Shown here one piece after another: positions 39,501 through 41,678 of a DNA stretch of 64,000 bases; the stretch's first letter is position 1, and each line of letters begins with the position of its first letter. Source of the stretch: Halichondria panicea (taxonomy: Eukaryota > Porifera > Demospongiae > Suberitida > Halichondriidae). A program made the position numbers and the translations under genes. Location of the stretch: NCBI RefSeq assembly GCF_963675165.1, contig NC_087387.1, forward strand, positions 4,056,990 to 4,120,989, given 5' to 3'. Under the pieces are notes generated by a model. That model did no database searches, was not told where the DNA came from, and was given only the letters and a program-made list of their open reading frames with translations.

Positions 39501-41678
39501 TCTCGGTGTAGGCAATGAAGCTACATGCAGTACCATTATTAATGAACACATATAATTTACATTTTAGATGGATTCATCGGCCATGGCGGATAATGCTTAA
39601 TTCTTTTTATTCTCTCGTTGTTCCCCTATTTTGCTACACACAAGTTGTACTAGCTTTCAAAGTAAGCAAACATAATCTTAAGCATTATTTTGCAAACCCA
39701 ACTAATTGCAATTCAAGAAAATTAATAATTATGATTAGCAGCCTACAATAATTATACAGAAACTCTTCATTATCATCGAGCAGCTGTAACAGTCGATCTA
39801 CACACACACAGACACACTACCGTATATCTTGCGCATGCCCAACTGAGGCATAATGACTGTATATATGAACGAACAAACTGCAAATAGATATTATACAAAG
39901 GTCCTTCCCTACAGACTTTCAACTCTCCTGTTCGTACTACTTTATCCATAAAATGAAATGCAAATGTTAAAAAGCGAAAAAGCGTTCACAGGTTGATGAA
40001 GTCACATTACTTTATACTAGACTACTAACTTTACTATAGACCTATGGACTACTTACTTGAGTTATTTATGTCCACATCAGCATCAGTTTGTCAGATCCTC
40101 ATGCTGGGCCAATGAATGTCTGGCAGCAAGACAACGCTTAGCACTGTCAATTAAACCTACAAAGACTTGCTTGGTATCTTCAGTCTCGAACTTTAGCTCC
40201 TGTGGAACCCCCAGTAGGAGGTTGAGAACAGACTTCTTCATGCTTCTTGAAATAAACTTTTGACAGCCATTTTTGTTGTGTCTACTATCTCGTGAGAGAG
40301 CGGAAGAAGGCGTATCAAAAGAAGAATGTAAAAATGTAAAGAATGTGCATTGTAACTGTCAAGGGCGTCTTTTTGCAAGACTCAAGAATATTCATTGTTG
40401 CCATTTTGTCATTTTTTGGTTGCTTTCGGTCGGAGCTGCCCACGGCACGCCCTTTTATAGTCAGCATGCTCGTTTAAATGTTCGCGGTACATTTACCCTC
40501 GAAATAATTACTCGCTATACAATAATTACTATGAAATCAGCTATACCAAATCACATACATGTATACCACCATGCATACATGCACCCTTCTTATGGCCATA
40601 TAATTATATAATCACCATCCAATGACTCAGTAGATGACTCAGTTTCTGTAGTGCTGTTTTGAGCTCTCTGTATGTGTGGAGTATAGGGATTAAAATTGTG
40701 TGCAGTACATACAATTCCACTAAAACTATAGCATGGTTATGTACAATGCACACTGATTGCCAGATTGCTTGACTATAATTATATAATCTGCTGTAACTAT
40801 ATACAGTGAATTAATTTACCTCAAGTCTTTCTGAGACTCTCTCTAGACCTGTATAAACATGCGATACAAATATAATTATATCTAGTATGCAGATCAACTA
40901 CTGTTCATCAACTTACTTTGATAAGATCCCTCTATTGCTTCAGCTACATCTTTTCTTGTCACTGTAGGGTGCCTGAGAGCAGTGCACATTCCTCCCCAAG
41001 TTAGAGGATCACCTGACTGCAGTCGACGAGCTAGGGCCTCACGCAAACACACATCATTGTCACCACGGTAGGTCTCACGAAAGTTGGTTAAGTCGGTATA
41101 GCTCAGCTTCAACGCAAGTCCAAGGTTGAACCAGTTCGGACTAGCACTCCTCACCTTCTCATACACCTCAAGTATGTCAGAGATAGTCAGAACAGTATCT
41201 GCATGACAATGATAATTCTATAGTGAAATATATAACTTAGGAAGCACATACCCAGTCCAGGTCCAGGGTTTAGCTCTACATCTCCGGCCAATAACAGGAG
41301 AGAGACGAAGACAAGTATTGCTCCTATTAAGATCAGGGTGAGGCCAATACAAATACTTGACGAGTGATTGCGGCTATGGTTAGTCGTGAAAGTTACTGAT
41401 TCTTTTTTCTTTTCAGGAACCACATCTTCATGACAGTTACTGGGAGGAGCTTTGTCTGTTGCATTATTTAGTACTGATTCAACGACACACTTATCACGAT
41501 GGCTGGCAGTATCTTCAGCCTGGAGGGTGCTACACTGCGTCCACAACACCTTTGTGACTACGATAGTAACATCACACTGTAGCTTCTGGTGAGCCAGGGA
41601 AGCTTTACGTGGCCGCCCTCCTCTTCCACCATTGAACAACCCAATACGAGCTCTCCACAACTCCACACCAATGCCCAT
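393..41678 (-). CDS. Split gene (or gene family): TM / 2A-like / Death / unknown domain / ankyrin repeats
   Basis: Minus-strand exons, in transcript order: 41678-41252 (basic N-terminus, transmembrane helix, 2A-like motif), 41198-40917 (Death domain), 39454-39369 (linker), 38482-37770 (237-residue unknown domain), 32804-32611 (polar linker), 29011-28358 (about five ankyrin repeats), then single-repeat ankyrin exons at 27282, 27026, 26799, 24902, 15752, 15590, 12386, 3341, 2851, 2624 and 488 (high ends). Exons 1-3 join in phase (1, 1, 0), as do 32804 to 29011 and all single-repeat exons. The joins 39369 to 38482 and 37770 to 32804 do not match in phase, so a small exon is probably missing at each, or two genes are involved. 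Death plus ankyrin proteins are usually cytosolic signalling or immune-sensing scaffolds; that role is inferred. No stop codon or 3' end was found, so the gene may run past position 1. Decayed ankyrin exons nearby show ongoing turnover. Confidence 0.5.
541..2525. other. Unassigned stretch with possible coding relics
   Basis: Plus-strand open pieces at 856-1041 ([20 protein letters not shown]), 1340-1420 (Arg/Gly-rich, [20 protein letters not shown]) and 1514-1735 could be fragments of one unrecognised element. 1690-1900 resembles the flanks of the recombinase at 4985-5020 and 6920-7110. The rest is repeats. Confidence 0.3.
2526..2624 (-). CDS. Single ankyrin-repeat exon, 99 bp (type 1)
   Basis: Phase-0 exon beginning [20 protein letters not shown] and ending GAQVNNQDN, with acceptor CTCACAG and donor GTGAGTTC. 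Confidence 0.82.
2753..2851 (-). CDS. Single ankyrin-repeat exon, 99 bp (type 2)
   Basis: Phase-0 exon, acceptor TTAATAG, donor GTGGGTTC. It begins [20 protein letters not shown] and ends [10 protein letters not shown]. Confidence 0.82.
3243..3341 (-). CDS. Single ankyrin-repeat exon, 99 bp (type 3)
   Basis: Phase-0 exon with AACAG acceptor and GTAAGTGC donor. It encodes [20 protein letters not shown] and ends VDVHVQEQ. The TALYWAS and IVQQLIDSG features differ from the other two subtypes. Confidence 0.82.
3435..4060 (+). repeat. Composite repeat: ACTCCGAGAAACATA block plus AGGAATGCAACCCCGCTGG block
   Basis: Block 1 (3440-3560) recurs at 7315-7430 and 32912-33045. Block 2 (3590-4060) recurs at 9835-10330, 21110-21600 and 33050-33215. 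Both look like parts of one old element. I see no RNA-gene or protein signal in them. Confidence 0.5.
4069..4345 (+). repeat. Minisatellite, unit about 44 bp
   Basis: Three near-perfect copies of a unit starting GAGCAGTACATTATAGAGCA are followed by degraded GAGCAG/TATTATAGAGC pieces. Related loci at 10325 and 21600 have one copy only, so the array grew here. Confidence 0.65.
4346..5286. other. Intergenic: repeat debris 3' of the recombinase
   Basis: Degraded GCAGGGCA-type repeats to about 4760 are followed by AT-rich DNA. A segment at 5030-5130 is an inverted copy of 35873-35968. No gene seen. Confidence 0.4.
5287..6903 (-). CDS. Crypton/KIAA1958-type tyrosine recombinase (DUF3504-like), intact ORF
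   Basis: One uninterrupted 538-residue ORF. An acidic N-terminal part holds three copies of an [10 protein letters not shown]-like unit (about residues 87-121). The catalytic half starts near residue 155 with an [20 protein letters not shown] core-binding helix. Catalytic-box residues visible are R316 ([12 protein letters not shown]), the H-S-G-K box (H436-K439), H462 (TGHRS) and tyrosine Y471 (AVRMYKR). The family normally has Arg where K439 stands (codon AAA, 5589-5587), so the R-H-R-H-Y set is altered by a conservative change. A C-terminal tail ending [10 protein letters not shown] resembles KIAA1958-like proteins. Such proteins are domesticated or mobile DNA strand-exchange enzymes. The start at 6903 is uncertain; a Met at residue 17 is an alternative. 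Sequences resembling both flanks lie close together near 1690-1800, which suggests insertion. Confidence 0.82.
   Translation of the reverse strand: MAIFLAISIGYTTPTRMRNSNSFCKTQLYDEMEEAIERMVREATASANAEIEEEVKELQNSLCPSLLQWLKTPVNTSASPVAATEQENTAPSNSNSATDEENTAPSNSNSTTEEENTAPSAVLQDIQPHPLTVSHQPHPHSSRFGEPITDDQLQSAIKTRIPKKTKKTTNWGFKVYTDWCTVRDISQPIEQMDITTMNTTLAKFVQETRRRDSKEYPATSLHNIVAAIQRHLRENGRPEISFFDENCPDFDMLRKSLNARMKQLTKKGVGNIRKHAQPITPEMEEKLWQMGIFSRSTGEGLINIVFWYACKMFGLRGADEHRDLQKDQFIIGKDDNGKFLRFVGKSCKNWQGGLHQRKIQPKDLHIYAKPDLEERCVVSSFCYYMSLIPEDGPFYRRPIADNPPRFSKQVIGVHKLSNIVKTFCRQAGFDGNFTNHSGKVTCATELFKNNVDEQLIMLQTGHRSQDAVRMYKRPTQEHHQLVSDILQAPAPKRHHQAPSHSDQPTIKEALKPIAAPNFNINTCGGGTQNIVIQYYQSH
7829..8515. 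mobile_element. DNA transposon with CAGGGGCGGATCCAG ends, 5-bp target duplication
   Basis: Ends are CAGGGGCGGATCCAG and CTGGATCCGCCACTG, flanked by GATGT on both sides (7824-7828, 8516-8520). The interior has no transposase. A second element (7966-8299) is nested inside. The same end type and a 5-bp duplication recur at 34485-34817, so this is a real family, probably a hAT-like non-autonomous one. Confidence 0.7.
7966..8299. mobile_element. Nested MITE with AGCCCCGTTTACA ends, 3-bp target duplication
   Basis: A 334-bp element has ends AGCCCCGTTTACACGA and (C)ATGTAAACGGGGCT and is flanked by ATA on each side. Inside, CCGGATT/AATCCGG motifs repeat. The 3-bp duplication suggests the PIF/Harbinger group. 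Confidence 0.7.
8640..9060 (+). repeat. Interspersed repeat (partner 33315-33650)
   Basis: From GGTCCACAAGCAACATCAAA through GTGTGTCAGTATTGCAG. A match at 33315-33650 carries a 62-codon ORF that is broken here. An associated block (TTTGTTGGCCGAGCAGA) follows at 9660-9840, 20945-21100 and 33695-33845. Confidence 0.5.
11040..11760 (+). repeat. Interspersed repeat 'CACCACTCACACTGTAACG'
   Basis: About 700 bp, repeated with changes at 13330-14060 and, shortened, at 14460-14890, plus the copies in duplication B. Apparent ORFs of 60-70 residues on the minus strand come from this repeat and are not supported as genes. Confidence 0.55.
11870..12172 (+). repeat. Imperfect tandem repeat, unit about 50-60 bp, copy A
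   Basis: Five or so units with the core GGCACTAAGTCTCTCCTATA and AATATGGGATA. The array recurs at 24390-24690 within the segmental duplication. Confidence 0.55.
12288..12386 (-). CDS. Single ankyrin-repeat exon, 99 bp (type 1)
   Basis: Phase-0 exon beginning [20 protein letters not shown] and ending GAQVNNQSN, with a GTGAGTTC donor. It lies inside segmental duplication copy A; its twin is 24804-24902. Confidence 0.82.
13330..14060 (+). repeat. Interspersed repeat, second copy
   Basis: Tandem-like partner of 11040-11760 within duplication A. Confidence 0.55.
14149..14188. other. 40-bp perfect palindrome
   Basis: Centre GCATGC at 14166-14171. Every base from 14149 to 14188 pairs with its mirror, with no loop. 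The half-sites begin AAAGCAATCCATATTGCGCA. Confidence 0.85.
14189..14340 (+). repeat. Repeat with short [23 protein letters not shown], copy 1
   Basis: About 150 bp matching 14944-15120. It includes an ATG-started 22-codon ORF on the plus strand, rich in Lys and then helical. It could be the start of a transposase first exon, but nothing downstream supports this. Confidence 0.4.
14944..15120 (+). repeat. Repeat with short ORF, copy 2
   Basis: Same 22-codon ORF and flanks as 14189-14340. Confidence 0.4.
15188..15640 (+). repeat. Duplicated 450-bp segment (partner 90-540)
   Basis: Carries the ankyrin exon 15492-15590. It matches 90-540 base for base over long runs. Confidence 0.7.
15492..15590 (-). 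CDS. Single ankyrin-repeat exon, 99 bp (type 1)
   Basis: Phase-0 exon, acceptor CTCACAG, donor GTGAGCAA. It begins [20 protein letters not shown] and ends RAQVNSQNK. It lies in a roughly 450-bp segment repeated at 90-540. Confidence 0.82.
15654..15752 (-). CDS. Single ankyrin-repeat exon, 99 bp (type 2)
   Basis: Phase-0 exon, acceptor TTAATAG, donor GTGGGTT. It begins [20 protein letters not shown] and ends [10 protein letters not shown]. It is paired with the type-1 exon 64 bp downstream on the transcript. Confidence 0.82.
16140..16205 (-). pseudogene. Relic of an ankyrin exon
   Basis: The minus strand keeps a GGCCTTCTCAAGATAG core and a short downstream piece resembling the [14 protein letters not shown] stretch of the exon at 3243-3341. 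The frame is interrupted and the splice sites are not recognisable. Confidence 0.3.
16643..16951 (+). repeat. 300-bp direct repeat ending in a truncated ankyrin exon, copy 1
   Basis: ATTCATTGTTGTTGTCAATG through CCCCCACAGAAACC is repeated at 18325-18621. Both break at the same base inside the ankyrin exon. Confidence 0.7.
16914..16951 (-). pseudogene. Truncated ankyrin exon (donor half only)
   Basis: Same remnant as at 18585-18621: the end of a type-1 ankyrin exon with its GTAAGTC donor, cut off at the same base. It was duplicated with its flank rather than decaying independently. Confidence 0.5.
17422..17663. mobile_element. Foldback MITE with poly-G/poly-C subterminal blocks
   Basis: Left CTAGTTTTTAGTTTAAACG, then GCAGGGGGGGG. 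Right CCCCCCCCCCTGC, then CGTTTTAAACAAAC and AAAAAAACTAG. About 242 bp. Confidence 0.45.
17738..17816 (-). pseudogene. Decayed ankyrin exon
   Basis: The acceptor TTTTCAG is kept and the reading begins [20 protein letters not shown]. The 3' end has lost the Q-x-N-N-x and GTGAG donor seen in other copies and runs into a stop. Substitutions in the GH pair (now DH) support decay. Confidence 0.55.
18325..18621 (+). repeat. 300-bp direct repeat ending in a truncated ankyrin exon, copy 2
   Basis: Nearly identical to 16643-16951; a TATAATTATAC stretch is shortened. Confidence 0.7.
18585..18621 (-). pseudogene. Truncated ankyrin exon (donor half only)
   Basis: Only the last dozen codons of a type-1 ankyrin exon and its GTAAGTC donor remain. 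The match breaks off after GGTTTC on the minus strand. It lies at the edge of a 300-bp repeat also present at 16643-16951. Confidence 0.5.
19234..20465. mobile_element. Foldback transposon copy 1, TA target site
   Basis: A 1232-bp element has arms of about 500 bp that are inverted repeats, starting CAGTGCAACAACCAAAGAGA at both ends, around a central core of about 215 bp. It is flanked by TA on both sides (19232-19233 and 20466-20467). A related sequence at 720-735 (AACAGGTAGTAATT) shows the empty site with a single TA. A TA duplication and CAGTG ends are typical of Tc1/mariner-like elements. No transposase was seen, so it is non-autonomous. Confidence 0.8.
22021..23264. mobile_element. Foldback transposon copy 2, TA target site
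   Basis: A 1244-bp relative of the 19234 element in opposite orientation (the core is inverted). The ends are CAGTGCAACAACC and its complement, flanked by TA at 22019-22020 and 23265-23266. The twin of this locus in duplication copy A (10741-10750, TGTCTACAAGC) lacks it, which proves insertion after the duplication or loss in A. Confidence 0.85.
24390..24690 (+). repeat. Imperfect tandem repeat, unit about 50-60 bp, copy B
   Basis: Same array as 11870-12172, with only one or two base differences. Confidence 0.55.
24804..24902 (-). CDS. Single ankyrin-repeat exon, 99 bp (type 1, duplicated copy)
   Basis: Phase-0 exon beginning [20 protein letters not shown]. It is identical in layout to 12288-12386 because it was carried along in the roughly 4.7-kb segmental duplication. 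Confidence 0.82.
26701..26799 (-). CDS. Single ankyrin-repeat exon, 99 bp (type 1)
   Basis: Phase-0 exon, acceptor CTCACAG, donor GTGAGTAT. It begins [20 protein letters not shown] and ends GAQLNSQNK. It lies just outside the 3' end of the second segmental duplication copy. Confidence 0.83.
26928..27026 (-). CDS. Single ankyrin-repeat exon, 99 bp (type 2)
   Basis: A phase-0 exon with acceptor TTAATAG and donor GTGGGTT encodes 33 residues starting [20 protein letters not shown]. The TALW-K/T-AS-x-x-GHKDVAH core defines a second ankyrin exon subtype, shared with 2753-2851 and 15654-15752. Confidence 0.82.
27184..27282 (-). CDS. Single ankyrin-repeat exon, 99 bp
   Basis: The exon runs from CTCACAG to GTGAGTTC in phase 0 and gives 33 residues, beginning [20 protein letters not shown] and ending GAQVNNQNN. 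This is exactly one ankyrin repeat (TPLM, A-A-x-x-G-H, VVELL). It is the best-preserved copy of the type-1 exon. Confidence 0.85.
27283..28357. other. Intron between ankyrin exons
   Basis: Carries copies of intron sequence seen near 2640-3100 and 12400-12700 and a short segment (27990-28090) also present near 17020. No gene seen. Confidence 0.4.
28358..29011 (-). CDS. Exon: block of about five ankyrin repeats
   Basis: A 654-nt phase-0 exon (218 residues) runs between CTACAG and a GTAAGAT donor. After a short acidic leader ([20 protein letters not shown]) it carries ankyrin repeats. Clear cores are [58 protein letters not shown] and [20 protein letters not shown], each with the TPLH-like start and the G-x-x-x-I/V helix pair. 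Ankyrin repeats mediate protein-protein contact. This exon encodes several repeats, whereas all later exons encode one each. Confidence 0.85.
29290..29590. mobile_element. MITE, TACCGTACTTATTC family, copy 1
   Basis: Ends TACCGTACTTATTCCAATTA and (TTTAAAT)CGAATAAGTACGGTA. The internal TATGCGACACC and GACCTCTAAAAG motifs occur in both orientations. 301 bp. Confidence 0.6.
29591..31230. other. Intron, AT-rich, no recognised feature
   Basis: Short simple runs (TATTG repeats near 30210, GT tract near 30360). No ORF of interest. Confidence 0.4.
31231..31813 (-). repeat. GCCTCGGTG-family element
   Basis: A full-length minus-orientation copy of a roughly 570-bp non-autonomous family. Marks: GCCTCGGTGCGCATGCGCAA start, a (GT)n tract, AGACTGCTACAGCTGCTCAA, GCTCTGCACTAGAACGCTAG, a GATCGTTTTTAACAACAATC block and a CCACCGAGGCATCAGCACC end. 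GCCTCGGTG and CACCGAGGC at the two ends are complementary. No internal ORF is shared. Confidence 0.65.
31953..31998. other. Hairpin: 16-bp perfect inverted repeat, 14-base loop
   Basis: Left TTACTCGAGGCTGTCT, right its exact complement at 31983-31998. Confidence 0.8.
32143..32582 (+). repeat. GCCTCGGTG-family element with long (GT)n tract
   Basis: A 5'-worn copy. The GT tract at about 32150-32215 has grown to more than 30 units, followed by GTGC repeats. The end lies about 30 bp from the exon at 32611. Confidence 0.6.
32611..32804 (-). CDS. Exon: polar linker before the ankyrin block
   Basis: A 194-nt exon has a CACTCAG acceptor and a GTAATTA donor. It enters in phase 1, leaves in phase 0 and then joins the ankyrin exon at 29011 in frame. 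It is rich in Ser, Asp and basic residues ([40 protein letters not shown]), which suggests a disordered, possibly phosphorylated linker. A repeat of the GCCTCGGTG family ends about 30 bp from its donor side. Confidence 0.45.
33315..33860 (+). repeat. Interspersed repeat (partner 8640-9060 and 9640-9850)
   Basis: A single copy with the two blocks joined, unlike at 8.6-9.9 kb, where about 600 bp separate them. Confidence 0.5.
34279..34425. mobile_element. Short MITE, 17-bp perfect terminal inverted repeats
   Basis: AGTCTCATGGATCAGCC at 34279-34295 and its exact complement at 34409-34425. 147 bp, no coding content. No clear target duplication. Confidence 0.55.
34485..34817. mobile_element. Non-autonomous DNA transposon, AGCAT target duplication
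   Basis: Ends CAGTGGCAGATCCAGG and CCTGGATTAATCACTG with AGCAT on both sides (34480-34484, 34818-34822). It is a shorter relative of the 7829-8515 element. Confidence 0.68.
35061..35435 (-). repeat. GCCTCGGTG-family element, truncated
   Basis: A minus-orientation copy lacking the last 150 bp or so. It keeps the GCTCTGCACTAGAACGC and AGCAGCTGTAGCAGTC blocks. Confidence 0.5.
35487..36061 (-). repeat. GCCTCGGTG-family element with an insertion
   Basis: A diverged minus-orientation copy. A segment of about 95 bp (35873-35968) breaks it and recurs, reversed, at 5030-5130. The ends are GAAAGCACCGCAGGTGCTGA and CATACCTCGAGG. Confidence 0.5.
36464..36517. other. Hairpin: 16-bp perfect inverted repeat around an AT tract
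   Basis: Arms CTGTAGGGCCTGTATA (36464-36479) and complement (36502-36517) flank a TA-rich loop. Confidence 0.75.
36803..37726. mobile_element. piggyBac-type element, internally deleted, TTAA flanks
   Basis: Terminal inverted repeats CCCTTTAACCGTC and GACGGTTAAAGGG are flanked by TTAA at 36799-36802 and 37727-37730, the diagnostic piggyBac target. The element is 924 bp, too short for a transposase of about 1.7 kb. A palindrome (GGGCCACGATCGTGGCCC) lies 15 bp inside the left end. It sits in the intron between the 37770 and 32804 exons, 40 bp from the former. Confidence 0.82.
37015..37269 (+). pseudogene. Remnant of piggyBac transposase N-terminus
   Basis: An 84-residue [23 protein letters not shown], continues as an acidic Ser/Asp-rich stretch ([33 protein letters not shown]) and ends at TAG. 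Acidic N-termini of this form precede the catalytic domain in piggyBac transposases, and the ORF lies inside TTAA-flanked ends. The DDD catalytic part is absent. Confidence 0.55.
37770..38482 (-). CDS. Exon encoding a 237-residue domain of unknown family
   Basis: This is a 713-nt open exon from a TATGCAG acceptor to a GTACATG donor. The N-terminal part is helical ([20 protein letters not shown]). The most distinctive stretch is around the middle: [20 protein letters not shown], then [20 protein letters not shown]. The aromatic-rich YFSFFDY core followed by a D-K-x-x-M-x-x-Y repeat looks like a conserved domain in poriferan or cnidarian Death/ankyrin proteins, but I cannot name it. The C-terminal third is beta-like ([40 protein letters not shown]). 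Two phase-0 and phase-1 boundaries do not meet the neighbouring exons, so flanking exons are probably missing from my model. Confidence 0.6.
39369..39454 (-). CDS. Exon 3: short linker
   Basis: An 86-nt exon lies between a TTTTTTCTCAG acceptor and a GTAAGTA donor. Entered in phase 1 from the Death exon it reads [20 protein letters not shown], then GTPSTYVEN, and leaves in phase 0. It is the only open frame through the segment and it fits the phase of the exon before it. No domain is recognised. Confidence 0.5.
40057..40263 (-). pseudogene. Coding-like relic between Death and linker exons
   Basis: On the minus strand this segment reads [20 protein letters not shown], then about 30 more residues ending [10 protein letters not shown] before TGA. 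In a shifted frame the sequence continues [10 protein letters not shown] to a GTAAGT donor. Amphipathic composition and the possible frame change suggest a decayed exon. I do not recognise the family, and its phase does not fit the flanking exons. Confidence 0.3.
40917..41198 (-). CDS. Exon 2: Death domain
   Basis: The exon is bounded by GCAG before 41198 and a GTAAGT donor after 40917. It opens in phase 1, completing GAT from exon 1, and reads [20 protein letters not shown] and on for about 93 residues. The pattern is that of a Death-fold: a first helix, [12 protein letters not shown] (the W and L-G-L positions of helix 2), [21 protein letters not shown] with the L-x-x-A-L-x-R-x spacing of helices 4 and 5, and [18 protein letters not shown] with the usual W-x-x-L-x-x-A-L-like packing of helix 5-6. 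The closing SYQ is typical of invertebrate Death domains. Death domains form homotypic complexes in apoptosis and innate immune signalling; the partner is unknown. It lies directly after the 2A-like motif. Confidence 0.8.
41252..41678 (-). CDS. Exon 1: N-terminal segment, transmembrane helix and 2A-like GDVELNPGP
   Basis: The reading starts at ATG 41678. The first 30 residues are basic (WRARIGLF, then RGGRPRK). A polar stretch follows to about residue 108, then an uninterrupted hydrophobic segment at about 109-131 ([17 protein letters not shown] and on). It is followed at once by GDVELNPGP (D133-P140, codons 41282-41259), which matches the 2A consensus D-V/I-E-x-N-P-G-P. In 2A peptides the ribosome fails to form the last Gly-Pro bond, which would fall between G139 and P140. 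The exon ends in phase 1 three codons later (donor GTATGTG) and joins the Death-domain exon in frame. In sea urchin NLR proteins, 2A-like sequences near the N-terminus act as both signal sequence and recoding element. CR1-like retrotransposons also carry such starts, so an element origin is possible. The start codon choice is tentative. Confidence 0.65.

Follow-up and report, generated by a model that had tools for sequence, protein, structure and literature searches.

A 64,000-nucleotide stretch of the genome of the demosponge Halichondria panicea (contig NC_087387.1, positions 4,056,990 to 4,120,989; here the window) allowed us to characterize a 2A-like, or StopGo, ribosome-skipping motif that sits directly behind a membrane helix in a Death/ankyrin gene. 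The exon that carries this motif probably makes a separate membrane protein resembling a tail-anchored one, together with a free cytosolic receptor, a reading that is based on the sequence, the splice geometry, selection and genome-wide linkage, and from which skipping itself, its efficiency, targeting and function are inferred. Searches of this one genome (131 Mb) used codon patterns, protein and profile comparison, and Pfam. The earlier note on this DNA had taken a Death-ankyrin receptor to be a new setting for such a motif; the setting stands, but it is not special to these genes, as the 2A module occurs in dozens of copies and is placed ahead of Death-ankyrin, Death-NACHT and CARD-like-NACHT genes alike. 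The parts of the window gene on which the argument turns are the following.

41252–41678, minus strand: 2A exon from its first methionine, with N-terminus, middle region, membrane helix, 2A segment and phase-1 donor

41286–41342, minus strand: hydrophobic helix window, residues 113-131, Kyte-Doolittle (KD) hydropathy 2.99

41259–41282, minus strand: 2A/StopGo core DVELNPGP, found by codon pattern, with the predicted skip between Gly139 and Pro140

41199–41251, minus strand: phase-1 intron of 53 nucleotides (nt), GTATGTG...CATGCAG, with GT/AG and phase kept in 7/7 family members

40917–41198, minus strand: Death-domain exon, from profile matches, its 3′ end provisionally placed at GTAAGT

DVELNPGP is the sole instance in the window, where NPGP occurs nowhere else in any frame, and it fits the 2A/StopGo element both in its core, (D/G/C/N)(V/I)ExNPGP, and in the L-rich hexamer ending in (A/S/C)G, here LLLLAG, that directly precedes it. 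The helix window is the best 19-residue hydropathy window; it has 112 residues ahead of it and ends 8 residues before Gly139. The last base of the exon is 41252, at the donor G|GTATGTG, and the Death exon begins at 41198, so that the phase-1 join is in frame and reads L-D-T-V. These positions agree with the earlier note on GDVELNPGP following right after a hydrophobic helix, on the skip-site proline being residue 140, and on a coding exon placed and phased to join the Death exon; its count of three codons before the splice has to be corrected to two full codons and one base between core and donor. A 5′ exon upstream of 41678 is possible.

The exon after the 2A exon is a Death domain. A 13-member profile of the exon matches the PDB Death domains of PIDD, FADD and CRADD (best E 8.6e-05), and 10 of the 13 members match Pfam Death at E<=1. 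The window copy alone stays under the Pfam cut-off (E 0.23), and a longer open reading frame (ORF) containing it gave no Pfam match at E<=1. A single-sequence structure prediction of the exon returned six helices at low confidence (predicted local distance difference test score 49) and was not used.

The codon pattern for DxExNPGP has 116 matches in the genome (91 DV, 25 DI) versus 1 for the reversed pattern, which rules out a chance motif. A search for variants at position 12 of the motif (p12), which took in Y, H, N, C, R and S and left aside GTG valine codons, found four places, two with N and two with Y, versus 116 with D; the two with tyrosine are L073, a broken gene, and C15:1011836. We read 67 of the 116 places at locus level, and 62 distinct copies serve for the hexamer and hydropathy figures below. 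All 116 were sorted into classes by eye, from the loci read, the core codons and position: the window family (11); a Death-ankyrin family of C5/C10 type (19); a GDVEANPGP-like Death(-NACHT) family (45, including 41 on C14, 8 of which were read); a WRARIGL Death-Death(-NACHT) family (4); CARD-like-NACHT genes (2); a C2 cluster with a CARD-like exon (11, one read); a further Death-like class (9); a C7 pair (2); retrotransposon-like copies (8); and others (5). Pfam confirmed NACHT in the 2A genes L016, L018, L020 and L050, and found none in those window stretches that were searched, which hold part of the exons only. ‘CARD-like’ is a judgement by eye: against Pfam CARD the C2-cluster exon reached only E 0.13, and the L020 exon had no match at E<=1. 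A 2A core is also present in other ORFs, not receptor-like by eye, at L041 and L042 (C16:2.73-2.74 Mb), L044 (C17:4.085 Mb) and L026 (C6:3.065 Mb); the pieces of L041 and L026 that were searched gave no Pfam match over the cut-off.

Linkage to immune-type domains was counted from the domain matches, in the finding of which the motif played no part. The searches scored 150 of 589 Death candidates and 102 of 265 NACHT candidates and are not full censuses. A motif lies within 1.5 kb upstream on the same strand of 56 of the 150 scored Death-exon matches, and within 6 kb of 13 of the 102 scored NACHT matches, while the downstream and opposite-strand controls gave 0 for both domains. Counted from the motif side, 54/116 have a scored Death match within 1.5 kb and 13/116 a NACHT match within 6 kb; one motif may serve two Death matches. 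The region C14:0.5-1.63 Mb is a tandem cluster of 41 D(V/I)ExNPGP cores in both orientations, mostly before Death exons and some before NACHT. A core stands upstream of 36 of the 37 Death matches in this cluster, once as the variant NVEANPGP (L016); the remaining match, L076, showed none in the 1.7 kb read upstream.

For the hexamer directly before the core, our rule asks for at least three of LIVMF in the first four positions and an [ASCG]G end, and so admits GG beyond (A/S/C)G; 62/62 distinct copies obey it, at a base rate of 96/90279 hexamers in the window frames. As the search used the core only, this result is independent support. A helix sets most receptor genes apart from the retrotransposon-like copies. 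Its best 19-residue hydropathy is 2.69-3.12 in the window family (11/11), 2.16-2.73 in the C5/C10 family (15/15), 1.51-2.60 in Death-NACHT-type genes (11 copies), 2.36-3.06 in WRARIGL Death-Death genes (3 copies), 1.88-2.71 in the C1, C2 and C7 copies (5 copies), 1.09-1.71 in the further Death-like class (5 copies) and 1.02-1.55 in the others (5 copies); overall it exceeds 1.6 in 42/62 distinct copies. In 44 of 68 records (L075 repeats L055), the window, C5/C10 and C14-type families among them, a possible donor GT[A/G] stands at a distance of exactly 7 nt from the end of the core, and the pattern of NPGP, 7 nt and donor has 48 matches versus 4 in the control. By inspection the nearest good donor lies at +10 in L020 and L048, at +4 in L019 and at +1 in L027, L031, L049 and L050, all in phase 1; a further GT is present at +14 in L020 and L048, and many other copies have a second GT in another phase. 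In these families a phase-1 end after the core is usual but not invariable.

Odon et al. reportedly described, in 2013, 2A-bearing non-long-terminal-repeat retrotransposons of the apurinic/apyrimidinic endonuclease (APE) type. That the window exon is the end of such an element, or was captured from one, with the Death exon as an unrelated neighbour, is very improbable. The same genome does hold elements that start with a 2A core and a short L-rich stretch and continue into PHD, endonuclease and reverse transcriptase (RT): L021 and L023 by Pfam, and L022, L045 and L046 by similarity. They share the core with the receptor genes and differ in what surrounds it. L021 and L023 continue without an intron, a WRARIG-type start was not found in these elements, and six of the seven retrotransposon-like copies read have a weak helix (KD 0.16-0.95), the seventh being L034 (2.16), whose class is uncertain.

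The window family itself argues for a coding exon. The exon-1 protein has 62 genome matches at E<=1, many of them paired fragments from a single exon. In L001-L006 as in the window gene (7/7), the Death exon comes next, the GT donor is at the same place, the AG acceptor and the phase are the same, and the intron measures 48-54 nt. Identity among the five closest members is 0.96 in exon 1, 0.88 in the intron, 0.94 in the Death exon and 0.59 in the 300 bp before the start codon; for all seven the values are 0.89, 0.77, 0.91 and 0.50. High identity in the exons and low identity upstream make the pattern of coding exons and not of a dispersed repeat. A retrotransposon origin is therefore rejected for the window family, where no endonuclease/RT continuation occurs and the Death exon takes its place in 7/7; the earlier note's proviso that the exon might prove to be the end of a retrotransposon was tested, and both the Death exon in all seven members and the different make-up of true elements speak against it. 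A very old capture from a retrotransposon is possible. In the same family the first 42 codons (41553-41678, minus strand) have low silent divergence, with a proportion of synonymous differences (pS) of 0.053, where the Death exon has 0.15 and the middle segment 0.25.

Purifying selection on the 2A core is supported in the larger sister family C5/C10. Over 17 aligned copies the ratio of nonsynonymous to synonymous proportions (pN/pS) is 0.16 in the core, 0.43-0.47 in the neighbouring segments and 0.21 in the first 26 residues. The sole amino-acid change in the core is V/I, both allowed, and silent changes occur at D12, G18 and P19. Losses of the core were followed with an N-terminal bait, a copy counting as broken when a stop or frameshift interrupts the stretch from its start to the core position. 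Of 29 matches that include the N-terminal end, all 24 unbroken copies keep D(V/I)ExNPGP, as do two of the five broken ones (C13:4030740, C5:3080391); the three that lost it (C4:4050687, C5:2702639, C5:3029501) were checked singly as L032, L033 and L008. A DNA pattern for the WR-R-GL start has 39 places versus 8 in the control, and 27 of them have a core within 600 nt downstream. Six of the 12 places without a core were read, and five are broken copies (L008, L032, L033, L071, L073), while L072 is apparently unrelated.

These observations bear on the idea that the motif is inert and that the genes encode plain membrane-anchored Death/NLR receptors, which we consider unlikely. Transmembrane segments of sponge NLRs have been interpreted as suggesting putative membrane-bound receptors (PMC12909245), and in our copies the helix is no less conspicuous than the 2A motif. 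An inert motif, however, does not sit well with a core more constrained than the helix in the 17 C5/C10 copies, with a hexamer rule obeyed throughout, or with core loss that in the bait set is confined to broken genes.

Several findings weigh against a skipping module. Inside the limits used, 94/150 Death and 89/102 NACHT matches have no motif upstream, and because copies inside one family are related, the counts do not represent independent events. Among the 11 distinct Death-NACHT-type copies, 5 have a weaker helix (KD 1.51-1.58), and in 20/62 overall the helix does not exceed 1.6. The receptor-like copies L024, L028, L029, L038 and L047 have no GT within 22 nt past the core, and L039 has one only at +0. 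In the window family the core varies only V/I (one change, pN/pS 0.22; thin data of 8 codons in 7 copies), too few changes for a good selection test, and the first 42 codons have a pN/pS of 1.03, on few changes. The many Death matches that lack a motif indicate that the Death exon can do without it, and one could suppose that exon 1 is usually omitted through alternative promoters or splicing, the motif being seldom translated with the Death exon. We find this improbable, as donor, acceptor, phase and short intron are kept in 7/7 and the N-terminal coding sequence is conserved in the sister family.

The exon is probably best described as a reusable coding module that comprises a short N-terminal protein, a membrane helix, an L-rich 2A/StopGo signal and a phase-1 donor. 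At NPG|P the ribosome would release a first chain, which in the window gene numbers about 139 residues, and then make the Death-ankyrin chain starting from proline. A stretch 8-26 residues from the skip site fits inside the ribosome exit tunnel, and the helix, which occupies just these residues before the skip site, would still be inside the tunnel at the moment of skipping. The first chain would therefore be released with a terminal helix and an 8-residue tail, which is the shape of a tail-anchored protein. The earlier note had expected a membrane or secretory N-terminal peptide; of the two, a membrane product looks more likely than a secretory one, as the part ahead of the skip site, some 139 residues long, carries an N-terminal domain of its own and has the helix last. 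In the C5/C10 family the first product probably does something itself, as the low pN/pS of its first 26 residues suggests. The second chain would be free in the cytosol, the place where Death, CARD and NACHT domains act, and a minor unskipped share would be anchored in a membrane or translocated. The C14 and C1 families, whose helix comes earlier, would already be at the membrane.

The chief rival to this two-product reading, and one that overlaps it, is dual targeting by incomplete skipping: part of the receptor would be cytosolic and part fused to the helix, at a regulated ratio. We regard it as possible, though doubtful. The V/I and upstream variation among copies could tune skipping, and in the sea urchin SpNLR2A6 about 80% skipping was seen in vitro, the remainder being able to enter the exocytic pathway (Roulston et al. 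2016, PMC4981915). On the other side, four upstream classes that were assayed, one of them L-rich, skipped at about 92.7% to almost 100% (PMC12846837). Over the 20-residue flanks of the helix, before/after, the net charge of the window gene is 0/-4; four other copies have +1 to +3 / -1 to -3, L020 has -1/-4 and L037 has +5/0. By the positive-inside rule this pattern weakly predicts the unskipped Death part on the non-cytosolic side, where it would be unable to signal, which favours two products over a tethered receptor as the main use. Also possible, though doubtful, is a wider proposal: a genome-wide, exon-shuffled StopGo cassette would turn animal immune-receptor genes into two-protein units, in which one ribosome supplies, at a fixed ratio, a membrane microprotein with a tail anchor and a Death/NLR receptor in the cytosol, possibly acting as a pair, with the skip rate acting as a translation-stress-sensitive switch between free and tethered forms.

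The two-product exon has its closest precedent in the 2A signal sequences that sea urchin NLRs carry, reported for about 35% (85/241) of NLR proteins, or for 14/87 later database entries (PMC4981915). In both systems D(V/I)ExNPGP follows hydrophobic residues at or near the N-terminus of Death/NACHT immune genes, and these genes form a large family. SpNLR2A has a short, 26-residue signal-peptide-like N-terminus, whereas the sponge copies lack this short signal sequence and have the skip site at residue 73-142 in six of the seven copies measured and at 47 in the seventh (starts placed by eye; L041 left out), mostly in an exon of its own. Unlike the SpNLR2A set, the sponge module also serves Death-ankyrin and CARD-like-NACHT genes. 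StopGo activity depends on the residues directly upstream; L-rich classes ending in (A/S/C)G are tied to D at p12, with one measured as active, and N at p12 is active in viral sites (PMC12846837, 2026). The sponge copies resemble the viral L-rich classes (motifs 2 and 6 of that paper) in having, just ahead of D, an L-rich hexamer with (A/S/C)G at its end, and differ from them in belonging to cellular multi-exon genes and in that the hydrophobic stretch has, in most receptor-type copies, the length of a membrane helix. Transmembrane segments are also part of demosponge NLR architectures, first reported in A. queenslandica according to PMC12909245; a working 2A here would detach the helix from the receptor. 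The text of that paper has no match for ‘2A-like’ or ‘skipping’, and a largely surface-level search of the open-licence literature met no paper that reports 2A for NLR or Death genes of sponges.

Cellular genes are said to use StopGo/2A only rarely (PMC12846837). By the sorting of the 116 places described above, about 100 copies stand outside recognised retrotransposons, mostly before immune-type domains. If the two-product reading is true, a single message would give a small membrane protein and a free cytosolic receptor before dozens of Death/NLR-type genes, StopGo would be a mainstream gene-expression device in one animal lineage, and the view that helix-bearing sponge NLRs are membrane receptors would have to change.

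Downstream of the Death exon, two further stretches of the window belong to the same gene by collinearity with a paralogue on C11.

37746–38510, minus strand: open stretch of 255 amino acids, unnamed domain

28193–29131, minus strand: ankyrin-repeat open stretch, Pfam Ank_4 E 7.2e-25

The window gene and the paralogue (C11:4218500-4227400) share blocks in equal order from 41705 to about 26300, both stretches included, with a few extra out-of-order matches. In an ankyrin search, 10 of 12 C5 matches lie within 9 kb downstream of a 2A core on the same strand, as does, by position, C11:4220346. For another two C11 ankyrin copies the downstream distance is about 12 and 22 kb; both are interrupted by stops, and so are some of the C5 copies. 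Collinearity with C11 and ankyrin copies downstream of 2A cores together support one Death/ankyrin gene, as the earlier note had proposed, with the exon borders in between mapped in part. The 255-residue stretch, which has no Pfam match, reads as a large unnamed domain family; it has 112 genome matches, 13 of them on C1:14.9-17.4 Mb, a region free of 2A cores in our core list.

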